The notes below the pieces were generated by a model. That model worked only from the letters and a program-made list of their open reading frames with translations. It did no database searches and had not been told where the DNA came from. This document shows positions 949 to 24,842 of a stretch of 29,797 nucleotides of DNA, in pieces (position 1 is the stretch's first letter; every line of letters begins with the position of its first letter). The position numbers and the translations under genes were made by a program. Source of the stretch: a virus; the IMG/VR virus record IMGVR_UViG_3300017727_005296, positions 1-29,797 of that record; one strand, given 5' to 3'.

Positions 949-1563
949 ATGAATTTTAAAGAAGAAGTAGAATTAGAACTACGTAATAGTTTAGGTTTGC
1001 TAAATTCACTTAGAGACCGAGACCAATTATCAATGACCCCAGAACATGAATGGGCTGAGTTAACAGCACAGCGTATAGCTGATAAATTTAAGGGTAGGTA
1101 CGTTCCTTTTGTAAGCGAAGTAGAAGAATTTAATGCAACAATGGGAAAACCTAATAATTATGAGCCTAATATACCTGAAAACAAAGCTGAATGGATGTTT
1201 GTTTATGACTTCATTCTCGAAGAACTTGAAGAATACAAAGCTGCCTGCGAAGCAGGTGATATTGTTGAGGTACTTGATGCTTTATGTGACATTGCCTACG
1301 TCTCGATTGGTAACGGAACTATGCTTCATGGTCTTAAGGATAAATTATGGGATGCCTATCAAGAAGTACAAGCGTCGAATATGTCTAAAGCTTGCTCAAG
1401 TGAAGAAGAAGCACAAGAAACGGTTAAAGTTCGTTCCAAAGAGCAAAATGAACCATGTCACTACGAAAAGGTTGGAGACTATTATATTGTCTATAGAAGT
1501 CGTGACAAAAAAGTAATGAAGAATATTAATTATTTCAGACCTGATCTAAAACAATTCTTTTAA
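949..1563 (+). CDS. MazG-like nucleotide pyrophosphohydrolase
   Basis: A 204-residue all-alpha NTP-PPase-like protein. The MazG metal-binding pattern is visible as EELEE at about 91-95 and EVLDALCDIAY at about 107-117, the E-x2-E plus E/D-x2-D arrangement that binds Mg2+. Members hydrolyse NTPs or dNTPs to the monophosphate and pyrophosphate. The C-terminal part (about 170-204, with GDYYIVYRSRDKKVMK) resembles the extension of phage phosphoribosyl-ATP-pyrophosphohydrolase-like proteins. It sits between folE and the DNA polymerase, and its stop TAA abuts the polymerase ATG (TAATG). A role in dNTP housekeeping or ppGpp control, as proposed for phage MazG, is inference. Codons here include more C/G third positions than in the glycan genes. 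Confidence 0.8.
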   Translation: MNFKEEVELELRNSLGLLNSLRDRDQLSMTPEHEWAELTAQRIADKFKGRYVPFVSEVEEFNATMGKPNNYEPNIPENKAEWMFVYDFILEELEEYKAACEAGDIVEVLDALCDIAYVSIGNGTMLHGLKDKLWDAYQEVQASNMSKACSSEEEAQETVKVRSKEQNEPCHYEKVGDYYIVYRSRDKKVMKNINYFRPDLKQFF

Positions 1564-3353
1564 TGTATAAAAAATGTTATCAAGGTGAAAAATTAGGCCC
1601 AAACCATTTTGAAATGCATTTATGGGAAAGCGATGGTAAACATCAAGTTGCAGAATATAAAAACACAGCTTATGTTAACTGCCCCAAAAAAGAACACACT
1701 TTAAAAGGTCTAAATGGTGAATTTGTAAAACCTATTACAAATTGGTATTTTACTAAGAATGCTGAATATAAATATAAAAATACTTTAGGTCTCCATTTTC
1801 ACGATATGCCCCCTTATCAAAAATTTCTTATTGAAAGATATGGAATTAATGATGACCCCTCTACAGGACATAAGGAAATATTTTTTGATATAGAGTGTGA
1901 AATGGGAGGTGCACTTACTGAAGAATATATTGAAGATGCTCCTAAACCAATAACTTCTATTGCTTGGTGGGATAAACAAACAGATCTCTGGGCAATCATT
2001 ATTTTAGATAAAAAAGGTCAATTAAATCATACTAAAGCTAAAAACAAAGAAATAATTCCTGTTAAAACTGAAGTAGAATTATTACAAACTTTTGTAAAAC
2101 GTTTTAAAGAATTAAATCCTGATATTATAGTTGGGTGGAATAGTGATTATTTCGATATTCCTTATCTTTACTACAGAATTGAAAGAGTATTATCTAAAAA
2201 AATTGCTACTAGTTTATCTCCTCTTGGGATTGTTAAAACACGTAAATCTGCTAAATATAAAGATCAAGTTACAGGTGAAGTAAAAGCTAGATGGTATAAA
2301 CAAGATATGTATGTAGATATTATAGGTGTAGAATCTTTAGATTATATGCGCTTACATAAAAAGTTTAGCTTTAGAGATGAACCTTCATATAAACTAGATG
2401 TTATTGGTGAAAAATATACGGGGTTAGCAAAGATTGAATATGATGGTAATTTAGATCGATTGTTTGAAGATGATATTCATAAATTTATTCAATATAATTT
2501 TCGTGATGTCGAAATTCTTAAATTATTAGATGAAAAACTAGACTATTTAGCTCTTACTAAAAACTTATCACATAAAGGTAAACATAACTACAGTGAAGTA
2601 TATGCTAATACTAAAACCCAAGATGGTGCTATCTCAGCTTATTTATTAAGTCAAGGAATTGCTCCTCCTGCTCGTGACCCCAACCCAATTAATAAGAAAA
2701 ATTATGCTGGGGGATATTTATTTTGTCCTACAGCAGGTATTTTTAATTATATGTTTGATGAAGATTTAACATCACTCTACCCATCAATTATTATGTCTCT
2801 TAATATTGGTAAAGAAACTTTAGTAGGAAAAATACTATTTTCGGATGAAAAAATAAATGTTGAAGGAAAAGAAATATTTAATTGTAGATATGCTTTAAAT
2901 GATCTAAAAAAAATGGATCAAAACCTACCAGTTTCGGTTCAAAATGCTAAACGTCAAACTACTGAAATTAAAATTAAAGATTTAATTGAGCTAATTGAAA
3001 GTGAAAATCTAGCAATTTCAGCTAATGGTGTAATGTATAGAACTGATTTTGATTCAGTACTATCTACTATTTTGAATAAATGGTTTCAAGAAAGGCTTGT
3101 ATTTAAAAATAAAATGAAAGAAGCTTATAAAGCTGGTAATAAGGAATTAGGAGAATTAATGCATTTAAAACAACATACAATGAAGATCCTTCTTAATTCA
3201 CTTTACGGTGCTACAGCATTAGGTTCATTTAGGTATGGTAATGTAATCCTAAGTGAAAGTATTACCCTTACAGGTCAACGTATTATCCAAGAATCAGCGG
3301 CTTTTGCCAACAAACATATGAACCAAGTAATGAGAGGAGAAATAGAATTATGA
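1563..3353 (+). CDS. 43A: DNA polymerase B family, N-terminal part (exonuclease, palm motif A, fingers motif B)
   Basis: The first part of a gp43-type replicative polymerase, 596 residues. The 3'-5' exonuclease shows Exo I FFDIECE (D109, E111), Exo II GWNSDYFDIP (about 191-200) and Exo III YNFRDVE (Y311, D315). The polymerase region has motif A DEDLTSLYPSII (D401 and SLYPS) and motif B KILLNSLYGA (K541, Y548, G549). The ORF stops with TGA at 3351-3353, before the motif C aspartates, so alone it lacks one catalytic aspartate set and the thumb. Those lie in the ORF at 4175. The two parts sum to about 904 residues, close to T4 gp43. The stop overlaps the next ATG (ATGA). Activity probably needs assembly with the second part. 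Confidence 0.95.
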   Translation: MYKKCYQGEKLGPNHFEMHLWESDGKHQVAEYKNTAYVNCPKKEHTLKGLNGEFVKPITNWYFTKNAEYKYKNTLGLHFHDMPPYQKFLIERYGINDDPSTGHKEIFFDIECEMGGALTEEYIEDAPKPITSIAWWDKQTDLWAIIILDKKGQLNHTKAKNKEIIPVKTEVELLQTFVKRFKELNPDIIVGWNSDYFDIPYLYYRIERVLSKKIATSLSPLGIVKTRKSAKYKDQVTGEVKARWYKQDMYVDIIGVESLDYMRLHKKFSFRDEPSYKLDVIGEKYTGLAKIEYDGNLDRLFEDDIHKFIQYNFRDVEILKLLDEKLDYLALTKNLSHKGKHNYSEVYANTKTQDGAISAYLLSQGIAPPARDPNPINKKNYAGGYLFCPTAGIFNYMFDEDLTSLYPSIIMSLNIGKETLVGKILFSDEKINVEGKEIFNCRYALNDLKKMDQNLPVSVQNAKRQTTEIKIKDLIELIESENLAISANGVMYRTDFDSVLSTILNKWFQERLVFKNKMKEAYKAGNKELGELMHLKQHTMKILLNSLYGATALGSFRYGNVILSESITLTGQRIIQESAAFANKHMNQVMRGEIEL

Positions 3354-3598
3354 TAAAAAAACAAACACTAAGAAGGGGAGTAGTAATTAAATGTGAAGGT
3401 GAACTACTATCTAAAGAAGAAATTATAGCATTAAGTGAAAATTGGAATGAAAACCAAGAAATGTTTTTTAGAAAAATGCTAAAACAAGGTGGAAGATTTA
3501 CTTTAAAAAAACAAAATTTTCATATCACCACTCCAGACTTAATTTATAATAATAAAGGAGAAATTGAAACCACCTTATCTACTAATGATGAAGAATGA
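3350..3598 (+). CDS. Hypothetical protein, 82 aa, inside the split polymerase
   Basis: Not recognised. A mixed-charge small protein with an LLSKEEIIALSENWNE segment likely to be helical, then basic stretches, then an acidic tail (STNDEE). It has no cysteines for zinc binding except one, no membrane segment and no endonuclease motif (no GIY-YIG, LAGLIDADG or HNH). It overlaps the polymerase N-part by ATGA and overlaps the Smr-like gene by ATGA. It is therefore translated within one coupled run from the first to the second polymerase half. It is the first of three genes that separate motif B from motif C. Confidence 0.7.
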   Translation: MIKKQTLRRGVVIKCEGELLSKEEIIALSENWNENQEMFFRKMLKQGGRFTLKKQNFHITTPDLIYNNKGEIETTLSTNDEE

Positions 3599-3810
3599 GC
3601 ACTTTAGATTTACATGGGGTCAAACATGCTGAGGTAGAAGAAAAGTTAACTAGTTATTTTTTCTGGGAACAACCAGGACATAAACAATATACTATTATTA
3701 CTGGAAATTCTACTAAAATGAAAGGTATAGTATTTGAATGGCTCAATAAATATGAATATAATTATTTTATACCATCCCATAATTTAGGTGAAATACAAGT
3801 AAGCGAATGA
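3595..3810 (+). CDS. Minimal Smr-domain-like protein
   Basis: A 71-residue protein beginning STLDLHGVKHAEVEEKL, the LDLHG signature that opens Smr domains, followed by YTIITGNSTKMK at about 43-54, matching the second Smr hallmark (I-x-G-x-G/S). Smr domains are nucleic-acid binding and often nicking or RNA-cleaving modules, found alone or at the C-terminus of MutS2. This one is shorter than usual (about 80-90 residues), and the second motif has TGNST rather than the common TGKG. It is ATGA-coupled on both sides inside the split polymerase. Nuclease activity is not assured; the fold assignment is the firmer claim. Confidence 0.65.
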   Translation: MSTLDLHGVKHAEVEEKLTSYFFWEQPGHKQYTIITGNSTKMKGIVFEWLNKYEYNYFIPSHNLGEIQVSE

Positions 3811-4178
3811 AAAAACCGGACAATTTTGCAGAAAATAAAGCATTACTTCCTTATGGGGATAGTGTTGCTGCTCCTGTAATTCGTCCTGAAAATATAGATG
3901 ATTGGAAACTTAGAGGAGTTGATAAAGTAAATAAACAATTTAAAACTAAGTTTGATGAATTAAAAGAAGAATTCAAACAACTTTTAAAAGAATATCAATG
4001 GAATGAACTTGTATATCAATCTAAATTTAGTTATGAACCTATAATAGGTGAAACTTATCACCTTTACCTTGGGAAGGATGGAAATCCTTTCTTATCTTTA
4101 ATAGCACCAAATGAATGGAATAAAGAACATATTGGTTCATTTAAATTAAATAGTGAACAAAAGTGGATTAAAGTATGA
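3807..4178 (+). CDS. DUF2452-like protein
   Basis: A 123-residue protein of unknown function. The C-terminal half carries the pattern GETYHLYLGKDGNPFLSLI, then PNEWN, then IGSFKLN and a final KWI. This matches my memory of DUF2452, a family of bacterial (notably Bacteroidetes) and animal proteins with 'G-x-x-Y-x-LY ... S-I-I-x-P-x-EW ... G-x-(Y/F)-KL ... W'. A helical, charged segment (about 40-68) precedes it. The N-terminus contains LLPYGDSVAAPVIRPENI. It is the last of the three genes between the polymerase halves and overlaps the second half by ATGA. Its presence supports a Bacteroidetes connection but does not explain the insertion. Confidence 0.7.
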   Translation: MKKPDNFAENKALLPYGDSVAAPVIRPENIDDWKLRGVDKVNKQFKTKFDELKEEFKQLLKEYQWNELVYQSKFSYEPIIGETYHLYLGKDGNPFLSLIAPNEWNKEHIGSFKLNSEQKWIKV

Positions 4179-5101
4179 AGCAATTAGAAAGTACACCTTG
4201 GTTTATCTGTGATAAAGAAGATGAAAATTACTGCGTTTATGTAGATACAGATTCTAATTATTACAATGCAGAACCTATGCTTAGAAAACTCTATCCCAAC
4301 TTTGATAATATGTCAGAGGAAGAAAGAGATGAAAAGTTAGAGGATATTGCTCTTAAATATCAGGATTTAATTACTAAGTCTTACGATACGTTAGCATTAG
4401 AAGCATTTAATGTCCCTAAACATAGACTTGAGATGAAAACAGAGTGTATGATTCGTGCTGGGTATTTTAGAGCTACCCGTAGGTATGCTCAATGGATTAC
4501 TAAAAAAGAAGGTGTACCAACAGATGATTTAGATATTAAAGGATTAGAATTTATGAAATCCAATTATCCTAAAATATTTGGAGACTTTTTTAAAGATGTG
4601 TTGCAAAGAGTTATTAAAGGAGCTCCCCAAAACGAAATAGATACCCTACTAAAAAACTTTAGGACTAAAATCCTTATAGATACTAATATTACTATATTAG
4701 GTAACCCTACTCGTGTAAAAACATTAGATAAATATTTAGCATCATCTCCTCGTCCCGGAGAAATGTTTTCTTCAATCAACCAAGGTGCTCCTGCTCCTGT
4801 AAAAGCAGCAATTAAATATAATGATTTACTTACATTTTGGAAGTTAGATAAACAACATTCTAAAATTACTCAAGGTGATAAAGTTAAATGGATTTATTTT
4901 AAAGAAAATCCATACAAAATTGATGCACTTGCATTTTTAGATTTTGATCTCCCAGAAAAAATTATTACATTACTGGATAAATATGCTGATAAAAATAGAG
5001 CATTTGAGTCTATTTTAGAAAGTAAATTACAAGGGTTTTATAACGATTTAGAATGGGAATTAAATATGAACCCCTACCGAAATCTAATTTTTAGTTTTTA
5101 A
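4175..5101 (+). CDS. 43B: DNA polymerase B family, C-terminal part (palm motif C and thumb)
   Basis: A 308-residue completion of the gp43 polymerase. Motif C is VYVDTDSNYY with D24 and D26, the aspartates that pair with motif A D401 of the first part. A YFRATRRYAQW segment (about 97-107) corresponds to the KxY-type thumb-palm motif (KAKKRYAL in T4). The last residues, YRNLIFSF, form a hydrophobic tail like the clamp-binding C-terminal peptide of T4 gp43 (DFLFG). Compared with T4, the junction adds roughly 18 residues around the break between the helix ending the first part and the beta hairpin of motif C. The ATG overlaps the DUF2452-like gene's stop. The clamp gene follows one base after the stop. 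Confidence 0.95.
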   Translation: MKQLESTPWFICDKEDENYCVYVDTDSNYYNAEPMLRKLYPNFDNMSEEERDEKLEDIALKYQDLITKSYDTLALEAFNVPKHRLEMKTECMIRAGYFRATRRYAQWITKKEGVPTDDLDIKGLEFMKSNYPKIFGDFFKDVLQRVIKGAPQNEIDTLLKNFRTKILIDTNITILGNPTRVKTLDKYLASSPRPGEMFSSINQGAPAPVKAAIKYNDLLTFWKLDKQHSKITQGDKVKWIYFKENPYKIDALAFLDFDLPEKIITLLDKYADKNRAFESILESKLQGFYNDLEWELNMNPYRNLIFSF

Positions 5102-5102
5102 T

Positions 5103-5843
5103 ATGATAAATAAACACGACTTACAATCAGTTATTGGAAAATATCATTTAAATGGATTAGTAGAATCTGTTAAATGGACTATTGAAAATAACGCATTAAA
5201 TATTGATTTCCAATCACCTAATAAGGATATGATTGGACGCGTTAATCACGCAAATTTCCCGTTAGAAAATGGCGAAATGGCGGTATATGATACCTCAAAA
5301 TTAAATAAATTATTAGGGGTTACTAGTGGTGAATTATTTTTAGAGTTAGAAAAAACACAAAAAGTGTTTACTAAACTCATCATCTCAGATATGAATTATA
5401 CTCTGAATTTTTCACTAACAGATTTATTACTTATCTCAAGTGTAGGTGAAATTACAGAATCAGGTGAATATGAAATTATTAGTGAATTAGACTCAGAAAG
5501 TATTAATGCTATTATTAAAGCCCATAACGCACTTGAAAGCGATAATGTAATAATTAATATTGATAAAGATTTAGATTTACAAGATGTGTTAGTTTTATCA
5601 TTTGGTGATGTCTCTAATCACACAAATAAAATCGATTATCAAGTACCTAATACAACATTAAAAGATGTTCCTTATGGAACTGAATTACCCTTCAATTCAT
5701 CAATGTTTAAAACTATCCTTAATAATAATAAAGATGCTACCAAAGCAATTATGAAAGTTAATACTAAAGGGTATGTAAAATTTGAATTTGAAGGTGAAAA
5801 TTGGAGCAGTTATTATTATGTTGTGCGGAAGGCAGATATTTAA
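5103..5843 (+). CDS. 45: Sliding clamp, gp45-like
   Basis: A 246-residue clamp that would trimerise around DNA and tether the polymerase. The match is by overall pattern: an N-terminal helix, an AVYDTSKLNKLLGV segment like T4's AIYDLNGFLGIL, a second-domain start, and a C-terminal VKFEFEGENWSSYYYVV like T4's AAKFEGEHANYVVAL. Length is near T4 gp45 (228). It directly follows the polymerase C-part, whose C-terminal hydrophobic peptide is its probable partner, and is loaded by gp44/gp62 encoded downstream. In T4 the order is 45-44-62-regA-43. Here it is 43-45 with chaperones before 44, so the cluster is rearranged. Confidence 0.85.
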   Translation: MINKHDLQSVIGKYHLNGLVESVKWTIENNALNIDFQSPNKDMIGRVNHANFPLENGEMAVYDTSKLNKLLGVTSGELFLELEKTQKVFTKLIISDMNYTLNFSLTDLLLISSVGEITESGEYEIISELDSESINAIIKAHNALESDNVIINIDKDLDLQDVLVLSFGDVSNHTNKIDYQVPNTTLKDVPYGTELPFNSSMFKTILNNNKDATKAIMKVNTKGYVKFEFEGENWSSYYYVVRKADI

Positions 5844-5932: not shown

Positions 5933-6349
5933 ATGAGTACATTAGAACACTTAGAACGTTCACCGTTCGACATCCTATTTAGGAATTTCTTCAATTCTGA
6001 AGATCAATTCGCTCCGGCGTTAAATTCAAAACAACCACATCCTTTAAACATTTATTACAACGACGAAGGTTTACACTTTGAAGTCGCTTGTACAGGACTT
6101 ACTAAAGAAGATCTTGATATTAGTGTTGAAGGAGATTTACTTAAAATTAGTTATGAAAAACCAAAAGAAGATATAGATCTTTCAGGTTATATTTATCATG
6201 GTTTATCAAAAAAATCATTTGATTTAGGATATAAAATCTCTCCAAAATACAACTTAACTAAAATAAGTGCGGAAATGGAGAATGGGTTATTAAACCTTTT
6301 AATCCCAATTTCAGAAGAATCAAAACCAAAAGCAATAAAAATCAAATAA
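5933..6349 (+). CDS. hsp20: Small heat shock protein, Hsp20/alpha-crystallin family
   Basis: A 138-residue ATP-independent holdase. Features are an N-terminal SPFDILFRNFF segment, an alpha-crystallin domain from about residue 37 (LNIYYNDEGLHFEVACTGL, then EDLDISVEGDLLKISYEKP), and a C-terminal GLLNLLIPISEE followed by a short basic tail. The usual terminal I-x-I oligomerisation motif is represented by AIKIK. Hsp20 genes are frequent in T4-like phages of cyanobacteria, where the role is thought to be folding or protecting phage proteins. Here it stands between the clamp and the GroES/GroEL pair, forming a chaperone block inside the replication cluster. It has its own upstream gap with a possible promoter. 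Confidence 0.9.
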   Translation: MSTLEHLERSPFDILFRNFFNSEDQFAPALNSKQPHPLNIYYNDEGLHFEVACTGLTKEDLDISVEGDLLKISYEKPKEDIDLSGYIYHGLSKKSFDLGYKISPKYNLTKISAEMENGLLNLLIPISEESKPKAIKIK

Positions 6350-6366
6350 AAGTTATATAAAATAAG

Positions 6367-6399
6367 CGTGTCCTAGCGCAATTTTATTCGTATATTTAC
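6367..6399 (+). promoter_or_regulatory. Promoter of the shared type, upstream of the 93-aa gene and groES-groEL
   Basis: TATATTTAC at 6391-6399 preceded by TTCG, then ATTAAATAAA. Twenty bases upstream the -33 position reads CGTG (6367-6370) rather than TTTG, and this lies inside a GCGTGTCCTAGC element. It could drive 6423, groES and groEL. The weak -33 could mean reduced or regulated strength. Confidence 0.55.
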
Positions 6400-6422
6400 A
6401 TTAAATAAATAAAAAAATAGTT

Positions 6423-6700
6423 ATGGCTAAACCCAGCAAATCAAATTTACGTTTTATTAAGGATCCAGCATTAGCTCCTTATTATATTCAATTAGATGAT
6501 CATTGTTACATTGCTCAAAAATCCTCATTTTCTGAGTCAGGTAAGGAATATCAAAACACTATTGGCCATTATGGTAGATTAGGAGCATGTCTTGAAGCAA
6601 TTGCTCGTGATAGTGTTAAATCCAAAAGTTATGATTCATTAAGAGAATTTATAGAACGTTTTGAGGCAAAATCACACGAACTTAAAAATATTATTAAATT

Positions 6701-6704
<4 letters not shown>
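6423..6704 (+). CDS. Hypothetical protein, 93 aa
   Basis: Not recognised at family level. A soluble protein with a predicted beta start (YYIQLDDHCYIAQKSS), a central helix (LGACLEAIARDS) and a C-terminal helix beginning SLREFIERFEAK. Small phage proteins of this shape are common in my recollection, but I cannot name a function. It begins 24 bases after the TATATTTAC promoter, and its stop overlaps the groES start (ATGA), so it is the first gene of the groES-groEL transcript and is probably translated with it. Confidence 0.7.
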
Positions 6705-8612
<1,908 letters not shown>

Positions 8613-8613
<1 letters not shown>

Positions 8614-8870
8614 TGAAAAAAGAAATCAAAGAACATAATGAGCTAATCGCAATTAGAGTTCCACCTGGTGACAGGTGGTCTCTAGTTGATGATTCAACAG
8701 TCCATAAAACAATTACAGATGCTTTAGAAGCTTGGTTTGCTAAAACTGGTGAAAAAGCTGAGTTTAGACTTGCTCCTCTAGAAAGTAAGTTGTATGTTAT
8801 ACGTAATAAAGAGGTAGAAATTAAACCACCTCCAGTTAAAAAATATAACCTATATGGTGACCGCGACTAA
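8613..8870 (+). CDS. Hypothetical protein, 85 aa
   Basis: Not recognised. A soluble protein with a helical centre (TITDALEAWFAKTGEK), beta-like flanks (LIAIRVPPGDRWSLV and SKLYVIRNKEV) and a proline-rich, basic C-terminus (EIKPPPVKKYN). It starts in the stop codon of groEL (TAATG), and its 3' end overlaps the gp44 start by 17 bases. It is therefore tied translationally to both the chaperonin and the clamp loader. No catalytic motif is visible. Confidence 0.65.
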
Positions 8871-9774
8871 AGATCACACTTTATTAGTTGAAAAGTATCG
8901 TTCTAAAGATTTAGATAGTTATGTTGGAAATGAACACATCAAAAAGACCATTAAACAATATCTCGGTCAAAATGATATCCAAAACCTTATTTTCTACGGT
9001 CCCGCTGGTACAGGTAAAACGACTCTGGCTAAGCTTATTGTTAATAACCTTGATTGTGATTACCTTTATATCAACGCAAGTGATGAAAGGGGTATCGAAA
9101 CTATTAGAGACAAGGTTTCCGGGTTTGCTTCAACAGCTTCATTTAAACCACTCAAAGTGGTTATTTTGGATGAGGCAGATTTTCTTACGATACAGGCACA
9201 AGCTTCACTTCGAAATGTAATTGAGACATTTTCACGTACTACACGTTTTATTATGACGTGTAATTATGTTGAGCGTATTATTGATCCACTTCAATCACGT
9301 TGTCAAGTACTTAAAGTTATCCCTCCTAGTAAAAAAGAGGTAGCAGTACACCTCGCTAGTGTAATGACAACTGAAGATACAGCGTATGAAATGGAAGATC
9401 TAAAAACCATTGTAAACCAATACTACCCAGATCTACGTAAATGTCTTAACACAATACAGTTATCGACCCAAAACCAAAAATTAGTTATAGATAAATCAGT
9501 ATTAGTGTCATCTAATTACATGACATCAATACTTAAAGAATTAAGTAATGCAAAACCAAAATGGCGTGAAATTCGTCAAATCATTGCTAACGCAAACGTT
9601 AGTGATTTTGAAGAGCTTTATCGTTATCTTTATGATAACGCTAATGTATATGCAAGTGGTCGTGAAGGAATGGTTGCAATTTATATCAACGAATATAGTT
9701 ACCAATCCAACTTCCGTATTGATAAAGAAATCAACTGTATGGCACTCATACAAAAATTAGTTGAATTAAAATGA
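8854..9774 (+). CDS. 44: Clamp loader ATPase subunit, gp44-like
   Basis: A 306-residue AAA+ protein (T4 gp44 is 319). It has Walker A GPAGTGKTTLA (49-59), Walker B VVILDEADF (102-110), sensor 1 around MTCNY (about 134-138), and the SRC motif DPLQSRCQ with the arginine finger (about 144-151). It opens and loads the gp45-like clamp together with the small subunit encoded at 10170. The start chosen, ATG at 8854, gives the family N-terminus LLVEKYRSKDLDSYVGNE. The gene overlaps its upstream neighbour by 17 bases and the downstream 61-aa gene by ATGA. Codon use has more C/G third positions than the later glycan genes. Confidence 0.93.
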   Translation: MVTATKDHTLLVEKYRSKDLDSYVGNEHIKKTIKQYLGQNDIQNLIFYGPAGTGKTTLAKLIVNNLDCDYLYINASDERGIETIRDKVSGFASTASFKPLKVVILDEADFLTIQAQASLRNVIETFSRTTRFIMTCNYVERIIDPLQSRCQVLKVIPPSKKEVAVHLASVMTTEDTAYEMEDLKTIVNQYYPDLRKCLNTIQLSTQNQKLVIDKSVLVSSNYMTSILKELSNAKPKWREIRQIIANANVSDFEELYRYLYDNANVYASGREGMVAIYINEYSYQSNFRIDKEINCMALIQKLVELK

Positions 9775-10610: not shown

Positions 10611-11285
10611 ATGAATTATTTAAATACCCCCAATGGATGGGAAATAGTTAAAGAAGAAGGCTTTAATTGGGGCTCTATAGAAAATATTAACGCTAGACGT
10701 CAGGTATACCAAGAAGTTTGGGTAAATAAATTATATGAAAAAATATTTGAGGTTGAAGAAGGAGATATTGTTATTGATTTAGGTGCTGGTATTGGTGATT
10801 TTACTTGGAGTATTAGAAATAATAAACCCCAAGCTATATACTGTTTTGAACCCGGTGCAGATTCTCAAAAATCTCTTCCTCTCTTAAAAGAGAATACATC
10901 TCAAATTCCAAATTGTTTTATTATTGAAAAATTTATGTCTAGTATTGATAATAAAAATAATATTACTTGGGATACTTTTTTAAAATCTAATCATTTAAAT
11001 AAAATTGATTTTGTAAAAACTGATTGTGAAGGAGGAGAATATGAAATTTTTAAACCTGAAAATATTTTTTGGGTAAAAGAAAATATAAAAAAAATAGTAG
11101 GTGAATGGCATCTATCAACACCAGAATTAAAATCAAAATTTAGGATTTTTAGAGATACATATTTAAGATTATTTCCTAATCATGAGGTTAATTCGGTTAA
11201 TGGTGTAGACATTAAATGGGATTTATGGAATGAACATTTTATTGAATATTATAACGAAGTAATAATTTATATAGATAATAGATAA
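10611..11285 (+). CDS. FkbM-family methyltransferase (first copy)
   Basis: A 224-residue SAM-dependent methyltransferase. Motif I is IVIDLGAGIGDFTWSI (about residues 53-68), the acidic motif II is IYCFEPGAD, and the FkbM-type motif is DFVKTDCEGGEYEIF. FkbM enzymes usually O-methylate sugars or related small molecules, which suits the glycan genes that follow. It is the first gene after the replication block and marks the change of theme. The 9-base gap before it has no promoter motif. The stop overlaps the next start. Substrate unknown. A second FkbM protein with an extra N-terminal domain is at 17725. Confidence 0.85.
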   Translation: MNYLNTPNGWEIVKEEGFNWGSIENINARRQVYQEVWVNKLYEKIFEVEEGDIVIDLGAGIGDFTWSIRNNKPQAIYCFEPGADSQKSLPLLKENTSQIPNCFIIEKFMSSIDNKNNITWDTFLKSNHLNKIDFVKTDCEGGEYEIFKPENIFWVKENIKKIVGEWHLSTPELKSKFRIFRDTYLRLFPNHEVNSVNGVDIKWDLWNEHFIEYYNEVIIYIDNR

Positions 11286-11620
11286 TGATGAAATCAAGTG
11301 AAATTATTAAAAAAGAATATCCTCATATTTACAATGGTTATATGGATATCATGGAAGAGCAGCTGGAGTTATTCAGTAAAAAACATCTGGACTATGGTAT
11401 GGCTAATATCAGTGCTGGGACTTTACTTTCTACTAAAGAAGAAAGGGCTTTTGCTCTTACAGGACTTTGGTATAGAATAAGTGATAAAATTAGTAGATGG
11501 AAAAATTTATTAATTACTAATAAAGTTATTAATAACGAACCTCTAACAGATACTTACCAAGATATTGTAAATTATGGTATCATTGCTCAATTAGTTGAGC
11601 GTGGTTTATGGAAAAAATAA
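11285..11620 (+). CDS. DUF1599-like (nucleotide-modification-associated domain) protein
   Basis: A 111-residue protein with KKHLDYGMANISAGTLLST, then LTGLWYRISDKISRW and TDTYQDIVNYGIIAQLV. This combination (HxDYG, LW-x-R-x-SDK-x-x-R, D-x-x-x-D-x-x-x-Y) fits DUF1599, a small helical family recurrent in phages and linked by comparative genomics to modified-nucleotide pathways; the general shape recalls MazG-like all-alpha pyrophosphatases. It starts in the last codons of the FkbM gene, and its 3' end overlaps the HAD-nucleotidyltransferase fusion by 13 bases. The exact reaction is not known. Confidence 0.7.
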   Translation: MMKSSEIIKKEYPHIYNGYMDIMEEQLELFSKKHLDYGMANISAGTLLSTKEERAFALTGLWYRISDKISRWKNLLITNKVINNEPLTDTYQDIVNYGIIAQLVERGLWKK

Positions 11621-12975
11621 AATTAGTTATATTTGATTTAGATGGTGTTTTAGTTGAAGCTAAAACCATCCATTATGATGCTCTAAACCAGGCGTTAGGT
11701 AAAGACTATACTATTAGTTGGAATGAACATCTATCAGTTTATGATGGGTTAAAGACTAACCAAAAATTAGAAATGCTTACTGAACGTAAGGGTTTACCTA
11801 CAGAATTACATTCTAAAATTTGGGAAAGTAAACAAAAATATACACTTCAAATGCTTAAAGAACTTCAGCCGGATGAAACATTACAATCTGTAATGAATTC
11901 TCTAGTTGAGTGTGGTTATAAAATTGCTGTATGTTCTAATTCAATACGAAAAACTGTATTAACAGTTCTATCTAAATTAGGGATAATGGAGTTTATGGAT
12001 TTAGTTATATCTAATGAAGATGTAAAAAATTCCAAACCTCACCCTGAAATGTACTGGAAAGCAATATCAATGATGAGTTGTTTACCTGAGGAGACATTAA
12101 TCGTAGAAGATTCACCTTATGGTTTGTTAGCAGCATCTCGTTCTAAATCTCATGTATTAAGAGTTACTAAACCTCAGGATGTTACTTATGATAATATTTT
12201 TAATAAATTAACAGAAATAGAAAAAGGCCAAATTATGAAATCCCCAGCATGGAGAGATAATAAACTAAATGTATTAATTCCAATGGCGGGTGCTGGTTCT
12301 AGATTTACGCAAGCAGGGTATACCTTCCCAAAACCTCTTATTGATGTTCAAGGAAAACCAATGATCCAAGTAGTAGCTGAAAATTTAAATATTAAAGCTA
12401 ACTTTATTTACATAGTACAAAAAGAACATAGATTAAAATATAATTTAGATACTTTACTTAATTTAGTTACACCAAATTGTAAAGTTGTAGAAGTTGATGA
12501 ATTAACTGAGGGAGCAGCGTGTACCGCATTATTAGCTAAAAATTTTATTGATAACAATTCACCCTTATTCTTTGCTAACTCAGATCAATTTGTAGAATGG
12601 GATTCAAATGAATTTTTTTATAAAATGAATGAAACTGAAGTTGATGGGGGAATTGTTACATTTAAATCAACTCATCCAAAATGGTCATTTGCCAAAACTG
12701 ATGATCAAGGATTTGTAACAGAAGTTGCAGAAAAAAACCCTATATCTGATTTAGCAACAGTAGGTTTTTATTATTGGAAACATGGTTCTGATTTTGTTAA
12801 ATATGCTGAACAAATGATTAATAATAATATTAGAGTAAATGGTGAATTTTACGTTTGCCCCGTATATAATGAAGCTATTCAAGACAACAAAAAAATTATA
12901 ACCTTTAATATTCCCAAAATGCGGGGATTAGGTACTCCTGAAGATTTAAAGTATTTTTTAGAAAATTATAAATAA
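11608..12975 (+). CDS. HAD phosphatase - sugar nucleotidyltransferase fusion
   Basis: A 455-residue two-domain enzyme. Residues about 1-205 are a HAD-superfamily phosphatase of the beta-phosphoglucomutase/GPH type. They show D10 and D12 in VIFDLDGVLVE, the motif II serine in CSNS (about 109-112), motif III lysine in NSKPHPEMYW, and motif IV IVEDSPYG. Residues about 219-455 are a GT-A-fold nucleotidyltransferase with VLIPMAGAGSRF, FPKPLIDVQGKPM, GAACTALLA and a metal-binding NSDQ (D326). This could dephosphorylate a sugar or polyol phosphate and form an NDP-sugar, or act on consecutive intermediates. A cupin gene and a fusion of reversed domain order follow. Substrate cannot be read from sequence. 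Confidence 0.88.
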   Translation: MEKIKLVIFDLDGVLVEAKTIHYDALNQALGKDYTISWNEHLSVYDGLKTNQKLEMLTERKGLPTELHSKIWESKQKYTLQMLKELQPDETLQSVMNSLVECGYKIAVCSNSIRKTVLTVLSKLGIMEFMDLVISNEDVKNSKPHPEMYWKAISMMSCLPEETLIVEDSPYGLLAASRSKSHVLRVTKPQDVTYDNIFNKLTEIEKGQIMKSPAWRDNKLNVLIPMAGAGSRFTQAGYTFPKPLIDVQGKPMIQVVAENLNIKANFIYIVQKEHRLKYNLDTLLNLVTPNCKVVEVDELTEGAACTALLAKNFIDNNSPLFFANSDQFVEWDSNEFFYKMNETEVDGGIVTFKSTHPKWSFAKTDDQGFVTEVAEKNPISDLATVGFYYWKHGSDFVKYAEQMINNNIRVNGEFYVCPVYNEAIQDNKKIITFNIPKMRGLGTPEDLKYFLENYK

Positions 12976-13298
12976 TGGATATTTTAAAACTAAAAGATAT
13001 GGTTGGTGGTTGGTTTGTAGGTGATTTTGAACCTACAGCTTATAAAACTAAAGATTTTGAAGTAAGTTATAAAACCCACCCTAAAGGAGAAGTATGGGAT
13101 AATCATTATCATAAAATAGCTACAGAAATTAACTATCTAGTTCGCGGTAATATGAATCTAAGTGGGACTCACCTAAAAGAAGGTGATATATTCATACTAC
13201 ACCCAGAGGAAATAGCTGTTCCTGAATTCTTAACAGATTGTGAAATAGTCTGTGTTAAAACAGCAAGTGTAAAAGGAGATAAATATATAGTAGAATGA
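12975..13298 (+). CDS. Cupin-domain protein
   Basis: A 107-residue single cupin. Motif 1 is represented by GEVWDNHYHKIATEINYLVRG (metal ligands His36-type H-x-H in NHYHK and the glutamate in TEINY) and motif 2 by LKEGDIFILHPEEIAVPEFL. Such small cupins act as sugar-nucleotide or sugar isomerases/epimerases, or as sensors. Placed between two HAD/nucleotidyltransferase fusions and overlapping both (A of TAATGG, and ATGA), it probably acts on the same metabolite. Motif 2 retains H in ILHPEE but not the usual G-x5-P-x-G-x2-H spacing exactly, so catalytic competence is uncertain. Confidence 0.8.
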   Translation: MDILKLKDMVGGWFVGDFEPTAYKTKDFEVSYKTHPKGEVWDNHYHKIATEINYLVRGNMNLSGTHLKEGDIFILHPEEIAVPEFLTDCEIVCVKTASVKGDKYIVE

Positions 13299-14380
13299 AT
13301 ATAGTTATACCAATGGCGGGTTTAGGAACTCGATTTTTTAATGAAGGTTTTACATTACCTAAACCATTAATTGAAACTAATGGTAAAACACTTATTGAAC
13401 ATTCAATTTCAACATTAGGGGTTCAAGGAAAATATATTTTTATAACTCGTAAATATGATAACCCTGAGCATAATGTACTTTTAACTAAACGTTTAAATGA
13501 AATTCAACCTAATAGTATTGAAATCCAATTAAACGAACCTACTAAGGGTGCTACTGAAACTGCTTTAGCAGCTAAACAATATATTAATAATAATGAACCT
13601 CTTATTATTACTAATTGTGACCAAATTACAGATTGGGATGCTTCTAAATTTAATGAATTTATTTCTAACCCTACTATTGAAGGAGTAATAGTTACCTACC
13701 CTTCTACTAATCCTAAAAATAGTTTTGCTATAGTAGAAGATGATCAAGTTGTAAAACTAGTTGAAAAGAAAGCAGTATCAGATATAGCTTTAATTGGAGT
13801 CCACTATTGGAGAGAAGGGTATATGTTTGTAGAAACAGCTGAAATGCTCTTAGGGGATTTTGAAGAAGAAGGCAGACCTGAATGTTATATATCAGAAACA
13901 TATAACTACTTACTCTATAAAGGAGCTAATATTAAAAACTATCATATCTCAGCTAATGAATATATTCCATTAGGTACTCCCTATGATCTAAAAATTTATG
14001 AGGGTAAAGTAAAAGAATTCCATACTGAAAAACCTAAAACTATATTCTGTGATATAGATGGTACCTTAGTAAAACACGCTCATAGATTTAGTGATTTAAA
14101 AGATACTAAACCTGTATTACTTCCAGATGTTAGAGAGAAATTTAATCAATGGGATTCTCAAGGCCATAAAATTATTTTGTGTACTGCTCGTAAAGAATCT
14201 GCTCGTGAAATGACTGAATCCCATTTACAAATGTTAGGGTTATGTTGGGACATATTAATTATGGGAGTTACTAGTGGACAACGCGTTTTAATTAACGATA
14301 AATTAAATGTAGCACATACTGATAGAGCAATAGGAATCAACGTTATAACCAACGAAGGTTTTAAAAATATAGAATTATGA
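13295..14380 (+). CDS. Sugar nucleotidyltransferase - HAD phosphatase fusion (reverse order)
   Basis: A 361-residue protein with the domains of the 11608 gene in opposite order. Residues about 1-235 are a nucleotidyltransferase: IVIPMAGLGTRF, LPKPLIETNGKTLIEHS, GATETALAAKQYI and TNCDQITDWD. Residues about 248-361 are a compact HAD phosphatase with FCDIDGTLVKH (D253, D255), the motif II threonine in LCTARKE, and VLINDKLN near the end. The HAD part is smaller than in the first fusion and resembles capsule-locus HADs rather than the beta-PGM type, so the two fusions probably arose separately. The nucleotidyltransferase halves are visibly related to each other. ATGA overlaps tie it to the cupin and to the GDPD-like gene. 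Confidence 0.88.
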   Translation: MNIVIPMAGLGTRFFNEGFTLPKPLIETNGKTLIEHSISTLGVQGKYIFITRKYDNPEHNVLLTKRLNEIQPNSIEIQLNEPTKGATETALAAKQYINNNEPLIITNCDQITDWDASKFNEFISNPTIEGVIVTYPSTNPKNSFAIVEDDQVVKLVEKKAVSDIALIGVHYWREGYMFVETAEMLLGDFEEEGRPECYISETYNYLLYKGANIKNYHISANEYIPLGTPYDLKIYEGKVKEFHTEKPKTIFCDIDGTLVKHAHRFSDLKDTKPVLLPDVREKFNQWDSQGHKIILCTARKESAREMTESHLQMLGLCWDILIMGVTSGQRVLINDKLNVAHTDRAIGINVITNEGFKNIEL

Positions 14381-14817
14381 AATTAATATCACATAGAGGA
14401 AACCTAGAAGGTCCTAACCCAGAAAGAGAAAACCACCCAGATTATATTTATGAAGCTATCCAAGCTGGGTATGACGTAGAAATTGATATTTGGTTTGTAG
14501 ATGGGAAATTTAAATTGGGTCATGATGAACCTCAATATGATTTTCCTTTTGATTTATTTAGTAATTTTTATACTAAACTCTGGATTCATTGTAAAAACTT
14601 AGAATCTCTTTCTCAATTAAATAACTTAGATAGTAATGGCTCTAAATTAAATTATTTTTTTCATGAAGGTGACCTTGGAGTTTTAACTTCAAAAGGGTAT
14701 ATTTGGTCAACAAACCAATGTGAACGAGCGGTTTTAGTAATGCCTGAAACCTTTAATCAAGAACCAAATGAAAAAACATTTGGGGTTTGTAGCGATTATG
14801 TAGTAAACTATAAATAA
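14377..14817 (+). CDS. Minimal GDPD/PLC-like phosphodiesterase
   Basis: A 146-residue protein with the glycerophosphodiester phosphodiesterase signature. SHRGN gives H6 and R7. VEIDIW supplies the metal ligands E35 and D37. LGHDEP gives the second catalytic histidine H49. Later strands WIHCKN and YFFHEGD fit a short TIM-barrel order. Normal GDPD domains are about 240-250 residues, so this is a much reduced version. All four catalytic positions remain, so it may be active. It directly follows the nucleotidyltransferase-HAD fusion (ATGA). That suggests a glycerol-phosphate or phosphodiester-linked glycan, as an inference. It overlaps the next gene by one base. Confidence 0.75.
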   Translation: MKLISHRGNLEGPNPERENHPDYIYEAIQAGYDVEIDIWFVDGKFKLGHDEPQYDFPFDLFSNFYTKLWIHCKNLESLSQLNNLDSNGSKLNYFFHEGDLGVLTSKGYIWSTNQCERAVLVMPETFNQEPNEKTFGVCSDYVVNYK

Positions 14818-15428
14818 TGCCTATAAACCAAAAATATAATTTACTATTTATCCATATTCCTAAAAATGCTGGTACAACTATTGAAAATATTTTCTCTATG
14901 TATAGTAATCCTAGCAGCTTATGGTCAGGAAGTGAATTAGTTTTAGATGAGGGTAATTTTGCCCCCCAACATTTAAATTATAGTTTACTTAATAAGTATT
15001 ATACTAATATAGACTTTTCTAAAATGATTAAGTTTACCTTTGTTAGAAATCCTTATTCTAGAACTATTTCTTTATTTAATTGGAATTTAAAACAGAATTA
15101 TTATAAACCTAAATTTGATAATAAATTTACTAATAGAGAATTTGAAAATTTTTTAGTAAGTTTTATCTCAAAACTAGACTCATCACATAAATTACCTCAA
15201 AGTTTTTATTTTGATTGTGATTATGACTTTATAGGTAAAGTAGAAAACTTTAAAGAAGATTTTACTAACTTTCTAACTAAATATAATATTGCTATAAAAT
15301 ATAAAGGCCAACATGATAATAAAACTAATAGTAACCAAATTTTAAATAATTTATCTTCGAAAAATATTAATCTAATTAATACGTTATATGAAGAAGATTT
15401 TAAAAGGTTTAATTACGATATGATATGA
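14817..15428 (+). CDS. Sulfotransferase family protein (first)
   Basis: A 203-residue P-loop sulfotransferase of the carbohydrate type. The 5'-phosphosulfate loop is FIHIPKNAGTTIENIF (K16, T20, T21), and the 3'-phosphate motif is FTFVRNPYSRTISLFNW (R77, S81). A late VENFKEDFTNFL segment matches the family pattern in which the dimer or substrate region follows. It would transfer sulfate from PAPS to a sugar hydroxyl. No PAPS-synthesis gene is in the window, so the host must supply PAPS. It lies between the GDPD-like gene and a GT2 glycosyltransferase with a 4-base overlap to the latter. Confidence 0.8.
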   Translation: MPINQKYNLLFIHIPKNAGTTIENIFSMYSNPSSLWSGSELVLDEGNFAPQHLNYSLLNKYYTNIDFSKMIKFTFVRNPYSRTISLFNWNLKQNYYKPKFDNKFTNREFENFLVSFISKLDSSHKLPQSFYFDCDYDFIGKVENFKEDFTNFLTKYNIAIKYKGQHDNKTNSNQILNNLSSKNINLINTLYEEDFKRFNYDMI

Positions 15429-16207
15429 AAATAGCAGTTGTAACAGCTACTTATCAACGAGGTGACGGTAATACCCCATTAGTATTAACTCGAGCTATTG
15501 AATCTTTAAAAAAACAAGCCCACACTGATTGGAAGTTTTTCCTTATAGGAGATGCTTATGCAGATCAAAATGAATTTAATTCTTTTTCTAATCTTCTACC
15601 TTCTAATAAAATTTATACAGAAAACCTCCCAGTAAGTATAGAACGTGAAAAATACCCTCCAGGCACTGATAGATGGCATGTTAGTGGAATTACCCCTGTA
15701 AACATAGGTATAGAACGTGCTTTAGAAGAAGGTTTTGATTATATAGCTCTATTAGATCATGATGATCTTTGGTATCCTGACCATTTACAATTAATAAATG
15801 AAGGAATTAAAAAAACTAAATCCCCATTTATCTTTACTAGAGGATTTTATGAAGTTTCTAATGGAATAAGTGTAGGTATACCTTACCATGGGTATGAATC
15901 TGAAAAATTCGAACAATTACGTGTTAATGTAGATAATCCTATTAAATTAAATTATGGTTTTAACGGGTATGCTTGCTTTCCTTATGAATGTATTTTCCTT
16001 AAAACCTCAGTTTGTTTAGATTGTAGGTTAATTAAGTTAAGAATGAGAGATTGTTTAGAAGAAACTGGAAAAAGTTCTGTGGGAGATGCTGATTGGTGGT
16101 TAAGAATTAGAGAAGAAATGATAGAAGGTAAATATAAACCTGCTTTATTTATAGACCATATTACGTGTGCTAATATAGATGAAGGGTATAGTAAAACTAA
16201 CACATAA
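15425..16207 (+). CDS. Glycosyltransferase family 2 (GT-A fold)
   Basis: A 260-residue inverting-type GT2. The N-terminal strand and loop VVTATYQRGDG, the RAIESLKKQAHTDWKFFLIG segment, and the metal- and nucleotide-binding DHDDLWYPDHL (DxD within LLDHDD) are typical. A catalytic-base region is represented by GDADWWLRIREEM near the C-terminus. The protein has no membrane segment. It is part of the tightly overlapping run 10611-17675. Donor and acceptor cannot be predicted. Confidence 0.85.
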   Translation: MKIAVVTATYQRGDGNTPLVLTRAIESLKKQAHTDWKFFLIGDAYADQNEFNSFSNLLPSNKIYTENLPVSIEREKYPPGTDRWHVSGITPVNIGIERALEEGFDYIALLDHDDLWYPDHLQLINEGIKKTKSPFIFTRGFYEVSNGISVGIPYHGYESEKFEQLRVNVDNPIKLNYGFNGYACFPYECIFLKTSVCLDCRLIKLRMRDCLEETGKSSVGDADWWLRIREEMIEGKYKPALFIDHITCANIDEGYSKTNT

Positions 16208-17139
16208 TGAAACCAGCAATTTTAATTACATCTCATCCTAATACAGATGAAAAAGAACAAATTTTACAAAATTTTGGAAACTTTATTTCTCAGTATAAAA
16301 TAGACCATTACTTAGTTACTAACTATCCTCCTAAATCAGATACTCAAAAAAAGTTTAAAGGTTCATTTTTTTATAATAATAATCCACCTGGTCCTTTTTT
16401 AGGTAACGTATGGCTAACCTTTCCCCCAATTAGAAAGACACATCATCAAATTATCCCAAATTGGACTTATTCCTTTATGTTATTATTATTAAACGGTGTT
16501 AAAAACTTAAAAAATTTAGGTTATACCCATTTTATCTATTTAGGATATGATTCTCTCCCAGATTATGATCTTATTAAAAATTATATAGATAAAAGTTTAT
16601 CAATATTAAAAGATAAAAAAGCTACATTTACTGAGTATGAGTTAGGGTGGGAAGATTCTTTAAGTAGTACTAATTGTGCTAGTGAAATAGACTTCTTTAT
16701 AGAAGTATTTGAAAATAGTTTAGAATTATATTTAAAAAGAGAACTTCCTACACTATGTGAACAGTATTGGTACTCATCTTTATCTCTATATTTAAAGCAA
16801 GTCCAAATCCTCCCTAAATCTGATGCAATCCCTACTACATTTGATAGTGCTAGTTCTAACTATAAATTTAAATCTGGAAACTACTATTTAGGGTTTGATA
16901 AATCTTCTAATAATATTCTAATAATCACAGATAACTTAACCTTAAGTATTCAAGATAAAAATTCAAATATAATTCCACATAATTTTTTAAGTTCTAATCT
17001 TAAATCAGAATATTTTCCTAAAGAATTAACTGCATATAAACTTGAATCTATAGAAGATGAAAAATATTATGTAGATGATGAACTTTTATTTATTAATACT
17101 CCTGAATGGAGAAATTTAAATTATTTTGAAGACCTATGA
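16207..17139 (+). CDS. Unrecognised glycosyltransferase-like protein (copy A)
   Basis: A 310-residue protein of no family that I can name. The N-terminus PAILITSHPNTDEKEQI and DHYLVTNYPP look like the start of a Rossmann-like or GT-A sheet, and LGYTHFIYLGYDSLPDY resembles the strand-DxD region of GT-A enzymes (YDSLPD). The C-terminal third is beta-rich and polar (GNYYLGFDKSSNNILIITD). The product of 27448 shows the same layout: I-x-I-x-S-x-x-N-T at the start, YP...TQK, a NP pair, LG(Y)-x6-YD in the middle and a GFD/GWD-x-(S/D)-x-NN element in the last third. They are likely distant paralogues. Its place among sugar genes supports a glycan role. Confidence 0.55.
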   Translation: MKPAILITSHPNTDEKEQILQNFGNFISQYKIDHYLVTNYPPKSDTQKKFKGSFFYNNNPPGPFLGNVWLTFPPIRKTHHQIIPNWTYSFMLLLLNGVKNLKNLGYTHFIYLGYDSLPDYDLIKNYIDKSLSILKDKKATFTEYELGWEDSLSSTNCASEIDFFIEVFENSLELYLKRELPTLCEQYWYSSLSLYLKQVQILPKSDAIPTTFDSASSNYKFKSGNYYLGFDKSSNNILIITDNLTLSIQDKNSNIIPHNFLSSNLKSEYFPKELTAYKLESIEDEKYYVDDELLFINTPEWRNLNYFEDL

Positions 17140-17675
17140 CCTATAATGACTTAATATCCAAATTACATTCCTACTCAAGAATAATAGTCTCAGGACCTCA
17201 AAGATCAGGTACTACTTATGCAGCTTTTACTTTATCTCAAGATTTAGAATATAAACATATTGATGAACAAGAATTTGGTACTCATACTGCAGAAGGATTT
17301 TTAAATGTTCTTTCTCAAGAAAATATTGTAGTACAATGTCCTGCTGTATCCCATGTTTTAGACCAAATCCAATCCCAAAATACTATCATTTTGTGGATGG
17401 ATAGAGATAATGAAGATATTGCTAAAAGTGAAGATAGAATTGATTGGCATCCTCATTGGTTTAATGTTGAAAAAAACAAATACAGAACTATATATGGTGA
17501 TGAAGTTGATAAATTTGAAAGAAATTCATTAATGAAAAAACATTATTGGAATATTCAAAAACAAAATTTAAAAACAGATTATTTAGATATTCCATACTCT
17601 ATTTTAAAAGAAACAAAAGGTTTTATTTCAAAAACTCAAAGAAAAGATTTTGGAGTAAAACAAATACAATTATAA
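17136..17675 (+). CDS. Sulfotransferase-like P-loop protein (second)
   Basis: A 179-residue P-loop protein with RIIVSGPQRSGTTYAAFTL (loop 20-27). GPQRSGTT is typical of sulfotransferases rather than classical Walker A. There is no GKT/S. A candidate for the second phosphate-binding motif is weak: ILWMDRDNEDIAKSEDR contains Arg and Ser but not the standard R-x-P-x-x-R-x-x-S. It may therefore be a divergent sulfotransferase or another P-loop transferase or kinase. It shares an ATGA overlap with copy A upstream and ends the first glycan run. A promoter (17677-17709) follows its stop at once. Confidence 0.6.
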   Translation: MTYNDLISKLHSYSRIIVSGPQRSGTTYAAFTLSQDLEYKHIDEQEFGTHTAEGFLNVLSQENIVVQCPAVSHVLDQIQSQNTIILWMDRDNEDIAKSEDRIDWHPHWFNVEKNKYRTIYGDEVDKFERNSLMKKHYWNIQKQNLKTDYLDIPYSILKETKGFISKTQRKDFGVKQIQL

Positions 17676-17676
17676 A

Positions 17677-17709
17677 TTTGGTTACCCGAGAATCCTTTCG
17701 TATATTTAC
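17677..17709 (+). promoter_or_regulatory. Promoter of the shared TTTG-N20-TATATTTAC type, upstream of the second FkbM gene
   Basis: TTTG at 17677-17680, then GTTACCCGAGAATCCTTTCG (20 bases), then TATATTTAC at 17701-17709 and ATTAAATAA downstream. The GTTACCC and TTCG parts recur in the copy at 29656, beyond what a bare -33/-7 promoter requires. It lies in a 49-base gap and would drive 17725 onward. Confidence 0.75.
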
Positions 17710-17724
17710 CGATTAAATAATTTA

Positions 17725-18561
17725 ATGATTAATATTCAATATAATCACCCAAATATAAGAGTAGAAACTAAACAAGTTTCTATGCTACATAATTTACCTT
17801 TAACTTTAAATGTTAAATCTCATGTTAGTAAAGAAACTACATGGAACTGTCAATTGGGGGACTACAGCTGGGCAACTTTTTCTAATGATTCTATTTTTGA
17901 TATTGAAATAAAGGATTCTAAAGGTAAAATTGTTATTAATAGGGAATTTAATATTTTAGAAGATGGAAGTTATTTAGACAAAGCACTACAGATGTACTGC
18001 CAAAACTTAAATAACCCCCAAGGTTTAGCAATAGGCTCTCATGATGGTGAGTTTGGAGAATGGGTTTTACCTACTTTAGGTAATTTTACTAAAACAACTT
18101 TAGTAGAAGCATCAACCCCTCAATTTAAAAAACTTAAAAAAAATTACCAAAATCTCTCTAACGTAAATTTGATTCAAAATCTAGTTACTACAGATGGTTC
18201 TAAAGTAGAATTTTTTGAAGGAGGTAAGGGTTATACTAATTCTGTTAAAGAAAATGTAATTAGAAGTTGGGAAAAAGAAGAAATTAATTCCAATTTACGT
18301 GACTCTATTTCAATTAATGATTTAATAAATCAAATTACCCCAAATAAAAAATTAGATTGGCTACATTTAGATATTGAAGGGTATGATGCTGAAATACTTA
18401 AAGCAATAAACGTGGAGTTATTACCTAATTTTATTATATTTGAACATAACAACTTATCTAATAAAGATAAAACAAGTATAGAAAAATATTTTACTGATCT
18501 AAATTATACTCTTTATAACGAAGACCCAGTGTCTTATTTAGTAATTAAAGATAATGGCTAA
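17725..18561 (+). CDS. FkbM-family methyltransferase with N-terminal beta domain (second copy)
   Basis: A 278-residue protein. Residues about 1-85 form a polar, beta-rich domain with FDIEIKDSKGKIVINREF. Then comes a methyltransferase fold: GLAIGSHDGEFGEWVLP in the motif I position, TTLVEASTPQF (motif II), and the FkbM motif WLHLDIEGYDAEILKAI. The N-terminal domain is absent from the 10611 protein. Similar strand-rich, non-catalytic segments occur in the C-terminal third of 16207 and 27448, suggesting a shared carbohydrate-binding or assembly module, as an inference. It is led by its own promoter and overlaps the nuclease gene by 8 bases. Substrate probably a sugar hydroxyl. Confidence 0.8.
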   Translation: MINIQYNHPNIRVETKQVSMLHNLPLTLNVKSHVSKETTWNCQLGDYSWATFSNDSIFDIEIKDSKGKIVINREFNILEDGSYLDKALQMYCQNLNNPQGLAIGSHDGEFGEWVLPTLGNFTKTTLVEASTPQFKKLKKNYQNLSNVNLIQNLVTTDGSKVEFFEGGKGYTNSVKENVIRSWEKEEINSNLRDSISINDLINQITPNKKLDWLHLDIEGYDAEILKAINVELLPNFIIFEHNNLSNKDKTSIEKYFTDLNYTLYNEDPVSYLVIKDNG

Positions 18562-19498: not shown

Positions 19499-19516
19499 TA
19501 ATATACGTATATAAAA
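19487..19516 (+). promoter_or_regulatory. Weak promoter candidate upstream of the RHH gene
   Basis: TTTG at 19487-19490, 17 bases, then TATATAAAA at 19508-19516, followed by TAAATAAC. It sits mostly in the 35-base gap before 19534 and keeps a CG before the TATA and an AAATAA after it. The spacer is 17, as in the hsp20 candidate, and TTT of the -7 element is missing. Low confidence. Confidence 0.3.
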
Positions 19517-19533
19517 ATATAATAAATAACGTT

Positions 19534-19722
19534 ATGGCTAGTACAGATAAAAAAACACTTACAAGTGTTAAAATCAAAAGTGATTTATTCAACGAATTTA
19601 AAATTGAGTGTGTAAAACGTAAGTTCTCTTTCCAGAAACTTGCCGACCGCGCTATTCATTTATATCTTACAAATGAAGATTTTAGAAAAAAAATAAATAA
19701 TCACAACAACTTAGAACTTTAA
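19534..19722 (+). CDS. Ribbon-helix-helix DNA-binding protein, 62 aa
   Basis: A small basic protein with the RHH layout. A beta strand TLTSVKIKSDLFNEFK is followed by helix 1 and a turn at KRKFSF. Helix 2 is FQKLADRAIHLYLTNEDF. Homologous Arc/CopG-type proteins dimerise and use the strand to read the major groove. It follows the nuclease after 35 bases and precedes the two GT4 genes by 4 bases. It may autoregulate this boundary, where a TATACGTATA palindrome (19502-19511) lies just upstream and could be an operator. That last point is inference. Confidence 0.65.
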   Translation: MASTDKKTLTSVKIKSDLFNEFKIECVKRKFSFQKLADRAIHLYLTNEDFRKKINNHNNLEL

Positions 19723-19726
19723 GTAA

Positions 19727-22865: not shown

Positions 22866-22868
22866 AAT

Positions 22869-24630: not shown

Positions 24631-24659
24631 TATGTATTGAGTAACCAATAAAACTCGAT

Positions 24660-24842
24660 ATGAAAGACATAAAATATATAAATTGTTCGGTTTGTCAAGA
24701 ACCAATGCCTGAACTTAGACTAACTAAGTTTAATTATAGTTTTTGTGTTAACTGTAGTGAAACTAAACCTAAAAAAGCAATTAATGCTCAATTTGGAGAA
24801 GGTGATCACACATTTAATGAAATAGTATTTATTGAAGATTAA
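24660..24842 (+). CDS. Small zinc-finger protein, 60 aa
   Basis: C9 and C12 in NCSVCQEPMP and C29 and C32 in FCVNCSE give a four-cysteine finger with a 16-residue loop. The loop carries MPELRLTKFNYSF, which is reminiscent of the zinc finger of DksA/TraR-like small regulators, but the coiled-coil region of those proteins is not present. The C-terminal part is acidic (FNEIVFIED). The stop TAA overlaps the next ATG. Function unknown; a transcription-modulating or structural role is conjecture. Confidence 0.6.
   Translation: MKDIKYINCSVCQEPMPELRLTKFNYSFCVNCSETKPKKAINAQFGEGDHTFNEIVFIED

Follow-up and report, generated by a model that had tools for sequence, protein, structure and literature searches.

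A T4-type replicative DNA polymerase cut between motifs B and C in a clade of uncultured phages, and its probable operation as two chains

The replicative DNA polymerase of an uncultured phage, known from a 29,797-nucleotide stretch of DNA (IMG/VR record IMGVR_UViG_3300017727_005296; hereafter the window), is a T4 gp43-type enzyme encoded by two separate genes, which lie 821 bases apart on the plus strand. Chain A (596 aa, 1563-3353) comprises the N-terminal and exonuclease domains, the first part of the palm with motif A, and the fingers with motif B, and chain B (308 aa, 4175-5101) comprises the second part of the palm with motif C and the thumb. The polymerase is split at this same point in 110 of the 112 distinct loci in which both sides of the junction are visible. 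The replicase of this clade is very probably an obligate, non-covalent heterodimer of A and B; the break has a single origin in the clade, and the junction between the two genes acts as a slot for gene exchange.

The assignment of domains to the two chains, first proposed in a sequence-only reading of this DNA, was borne out by family searches and structural comparison. Chain A has matches in Pfam (DNA_pol_B, 6e-20; DNA_pol_B_exo1, 2e-17), PHROG and the PDB, and chain B by itself gives nothing in Pfam beyond a weak divDNApol match. On PHROG 262, which represents full gp43 in 856 positions, A covers positions 20-566 (4e-114) and B positions 565-842 (3e-42); A contains motif B (KILLNSLYG) and B contains motif C (YVDTDS), and the domains of B are further identified by conservation and an AlphaFold model. 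Taken together, the two chains hold all the features of the T4-gp43 type of family B polymerases, namely the 3'-5' exonuclease, motifs A, B and C, and the thumb, and the single polypeptide of that type is replaced by two open reading frames (ORFs).

Three genes occupy the gap, as had been read from the sequence. The first, F1 (82 aa, 3350-3598), is of unassigned function and has no Pfam match; it is followed by two cargo genes, the Smr-like F2 (71 aa, 3595-3810), whose Smr match (2.6e-4) is below the Pfam cut-off, and the DUF2452-like F4 (123 aa, 3807-4178; 4.5e-11). Both ORF calling and the raw sequence show that each neighbouring pair among the five ORFs (1563-5101), from A and F1 (3350-3353) to F4 and B (4175-4178), overlaps by a four-nucleotide ATGA stop/start, which also agrees with that reading. 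The identical five-gene order occurs in three further IMG/VR records (L002-L004), and the split in the window is thus no assembly chimera, an objection that had been raised at the outset.

Alignment with RB69 gp43 places A residue 592 at RB69 residue 611 and B residue 11 at RB69 residue 608, and the cut therefore falls in the loop that leads from the palm helix after motif B to the motif C hairpin. Chain A terminates in ...NKHMNQVMRGEIEL, its last residues being QVMRGEIEL, and chain B starts with MKQLESTPWF. In AlphaFold models, which were made of single chains, B (pLDDT 82) resembles the palm and thumb of RB69 gp43 (TM 0.72, E 9e-11), its first 18 residues being placed with low confidence. 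The new N-terminus of B is conserved in the form M-x-x-L-E-x-T-P-W-(F/W)-I-C, with near invariance at M, L, E, T, P, W, I and C.

Both halves are under strong purifying selection, with pairwise omega values against relatives of 0.09-0.22 for A and 0.05-0.15 for B. In 120 of 125 distinct sequences, B starts on the upstream stop or at most 3 nt from it (83 by ATGA, 9 by TAATG, and 28 with gaps of 0-3 nt). An intact polymerase elsewhere in the genome would have been an objection to a two-chain enzyme; no second PF00136 polymerase was found in the phage records searched, including a 75-kb near-identical record and relatives of 130 kb and, as the largest, 170 kb, and the extra PF00136 hits of three records come from B itself. 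Since these records are classed as linear and are possibly fragments, another polymerase outside them is formally possible.

The search for the same break in related genomes, which the sequence-only reading had proposed as a check, comprised a first scan of which 80 relatives were kept and a second scan that gave at least 501 matching places in IMG/VR. The two intact loci, L301 and L302, come from genome bins, and their A parts show 59% and 56% identity. No re-fused gene was found among the 110 distinct loci of the split clade, in which the divergence reaches about 60% identity. Maximum likelihood applied to 38 sequences gave a tree with a monophyletic split clade (support 100/99) and with L301 and L302 as its sister pair (100/98); the whole tree requires a minimum of three changes between the split and intact states. 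With its closest intact relatives forming a sister pair outside it, the clade acquired the break a single time, and no reversion is seen. The bins with split relatives are chiefly labelled Flavobacteriales or Flavobacteriaceae; one is labelled Pelagibacter and is the same bin as that of an intact relative. Binning being weak evidence, a Bacteroidota host is tentative.

What lies between the halves varies widely across the clade. No gene separates A from B in 17 of the 110 distinct loci, where the two mostly abut by a shared ATGA, and the other 93 have at least one gap gene, drawn from 17 families or more. Across the 69 loci of the first set, 17 families occur in 19 arrangements and include, besides F1, the Smr-like and the DUF2452-like genes, DUF4254/DUF6165-like genes, members of the DAHP synthase and transaldolase families, and a dTDP-sugar epimerase. 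The interval between A and B can be as short as -4 nt or as long as 2687 nt and holds unrelated contents; its median is 461 nt, whereas B and the conserved gene after it are a median of 2 nt apart, as counted over loci not reduced for relatedness. In the window the latter gene (246 aa, 5103-5843, plus strand) sits in what would be, by gene order alone, the place of the sliding clamp; its sequence gave no match to a sliding clamp. F4 is located downstream of B in several relatives without inserts. Given the loci without any gap gene and the variety of contents in the others, the gap genes do not hold the split in place; the earlier idea that the split was stabilised around host-like genes is thus not supported, although the break, the coupled ATGA junctions and the probable two-chain enzyme of the same proposal are.

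The commonest gap gene is F1, present in 66 of the 69 loci of the first set. It has at most one copy per record searched, always at the A-B junction, which rules it out as a mobile multi-copy gene, and it did not turn up in genomes with an intact gene or without inserts. Its AlphaFold model (pLDDT 78) has no match in the PDB, which counts against a known fold. The insertion of F1 might quite plausibly, if somewhat short of probably, have been the event that split gp43, the lineages without gap genes having lost it later: F1 is found in the basal split clade (L086, L100-L102) as well as in most other members, and its absence from intact and no-insert genomes would fit such a history. However, several losses would be required, and intact L301 and the split genes have much the same number of residues across the junction, which is what one would expect after a simple frameshift in the loop. 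A small frameshift there is itself a possible origin.

A third account of the origin, which we regard as plausible but tentative, is that the break is the relic of a homing endonuclease or a fractured intein, a mobile gene having broken gp43 and then been lost while the two chains stayed. Possible stages of such a process are found in relatives that are broken at or near the same loop. In one scan, 47 of 50 Mel-JY01-like loci were intact. In L230, L244, L287 and L288 the halves, split at this loop, flank a gene for a zinc-finger candidate endonuclease. The gp43 relative in L202 (4001-8084) is interrupted at motif C by a split intein (HYGDTDS|C... and ...ILIHN|S), and its gap holds a ROS/MUCR-zinc-finger candidate endonuclease gene that is a distant relative of that of the L230 group. 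In the 484-kb huge phage LR756508 (L216, 24364-32288), the gene is split at the same loop, with intein-like inserts at motifs B and C, and other genes fill the roughly 3 kb that separate the halves; A and B are separated at this loop in L217 as well, and neither gap has such an endonuclease gene. These other splits make a mobile-element origin plausible for the window clade, though unproven. Against it, no endonuclease gene occurs in the gap of the window, among the 17 gap families or, by search, in the clade, and these other lineages represent separate splits on the tree. An intein relic at the cut of the window itself was rejected, since intein motifs are missing and inteins in the relatives sit about 15 residues further downstream, at the DTDS motif. 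A relic origin is compatible with the two-chain mechanism.

These relatives have further peculiarities. The A halves of L217, L230 and L216 have similar tails of 40-50 aa (..LENGKTIQMGGNAVVKLTNGLTKKVSELTENDDVLI in L230) that recall a Hint-type fragment and are absent from the window clade, and the clamp loader ORF of LR756508 (33679-35073) seems to hold an intein-like insert. The B half of several Mel-JY01-like loci (L230, L287 and L288, 5128-6030 in each; L244, 942-1844; L323-L328) reads ...YTDT and then ACC/ACG/ACT-TAACT-GAT/GAC-TC, that is, with a stop and five extra nucleotides within motif C. Directly before TAACT lies a hairpin of 12 bp, whose pairing is preserved through compensating changes in three lineages; its folding energy is -17 to -23 kcal/mol versus about -3 to -4 for shuffled sequences, and a skip from the Thr codon to ACT would yield exactly YTDTDSV. 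A candidate endonuclease gene lies just upstream of this segment, and the close relative L253 is without both. The segment looks like a programmed five-nucleotide translational hop linked to a mobile gene, and may be likened to T4 gene 60 and mobA, in which a programmed translational hop is linked to a mobile gene.

Since the break is conserved, both halves are conserved and the gap is a slot, the enzyme of the window clade most likely works as two chains, as the sequence-only reading had anticipated; the heterodimer and its polymerase activity are predicted from sequence. Chain A would supply the exonuclease, the first catalytic aspartate in motif A and the fingers, while the thumb and the motif C aspartates would come from chain B. 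The two would be made from one mRNA by stop-start coupling, and they would fold together along the original palm interface into a single gp43-like active site. The break happened once, in the ancestor of the clade; the loop that it hit is also a long one in the intact sisters, and the split has persisted while cargo genes were gained and lost at the junction. Cargo is presumably tolerated there because extra genes at a junction that is already broken do the polymerase no further damage. An extended version, in which the lineage depends on this palm-cut heterodimeric replicase, F1 acts as a partner in assembly or regulation, and the cut is a standing landing site for genes coexpressed with the replisome, appears improbable.

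Joining of the halves by RNA splicing, protein trans-splicing or ribosomal frameshifting is very unlikely in the window clade, even though such systems occur in relatives, as in the split intein of L202 and the inteins of LR756508. An Rfam search of window positions 1400-5400, at E up to 1, gave no match, and thus no group I or II self-splicing intron between the halves; no intein motif was found at the end of A or the start of B in the window, the clade has no split intein with its N part ending A and its C part starting B, and the variable length and unrelated contents of the gap also argue against joining. The Pfam and Rfam results agree with the initial description of the gap as free of introns and endonucleases, and they weigh against spliced mRNA, which had been considered as an objection. 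It is likewise very improbable that the chains are no longer a polymerase, A being kept as a nuclease while the host polymerase copies the phage, since the palm, fingers and thumb motifs are conserved across both chains and a gp44-like AAA clamp loader large subunit, identified by Pfam, is encoded nearby (8854-9774, plus strand). A pseudogene or an assembly artefact, for which nothing speaks beyond the split itself, can be dismissed, as the arrangement is identical in other records and kept in 110 loci, with low dN/dS.

Elsewhere in the window, genes for a phage Hsp20, a GroES-like protein and GroEL (Cpn60) adjoin the replication genes (5933-8613), and a long run of sugar-nucleotide and surface-sugar genes (10611-28434) includes FkbM methyltransferase, HAD/nucleotidyl transferase, PfkB-like and glycosyltransferase-looking genes. 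Two ORFs might be freestanding endonucleases, one HNH-like by eye with a weak HTH match in Pfam (24842-25480), the other GIY-YIG-like (29318-29644; PF20815, 1.6e-5).

Two-chain replicases have precedents in the Aeromonas phage 43A/43B proteins and the archaeal split PolB, from which the window clade differs in the break site and in clade-wide fixation. Aeromonas phages 25 and 44RR similarly have a T4-type replicase in two adjacent genes, and the halves of phage 25 co-purify and are active (PMC2988022). The cut of 44RR (43A, 498 aa; 43B, 391 aa) precedes motif B, whereas that of the window follows it rather than falling between motifs A and B; the sequence-only reading had rightly suspected that the two splits differ. 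The gap holds a seg endonuclease in phage 25 and an untranslated spacer in 44RR, in contrast to the varied cargo of the window clade, where the split, unlike the Aeromonas one, is fixed across a large clade. In the split PolB of Nanoarchaeum equitans and in fractured genes with split inteins, a polymerase gene is also in two pieces, and the protein pieces are joined by trans-splicing; the window clade is without intein parts. The PolB3 of Methanobacteriales, reportedly described as split by Kelman and colleagues in 1999, is likewise a natural two-polypeptide family B polymerase. In Methanobrevibacter loci, the large chain holds motif C (ADTDG) and ends about 14 residues past it, so that the cut in these loci comes after motif C and is not at the same site. 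Intein loss has been proposed as the origin of the Methanobacteriales split (PMC4104785). The OM43 phages MEP401 and MEP402, which belong to a different phage group, have a split DNA polymerase with a small ORF between the parts (PMC10580990). A text search of a limited literature library found no report of the split of the window clade.

In replicative family B polymerases, the catalytic core is normally a single chain. Here the palm is broken, with its catalytic aspartates on separate chains, and this state has lasted to about 60% identity in an abundant clade of uncultured phages. Together with their intact sisters, these phages offer a natural experiment on the fixation of a fragmented essential enzyme, and they raise the further questions of the junction as a tolerated site of gene gain and of the independent splits of the same loop as a structural weak point.
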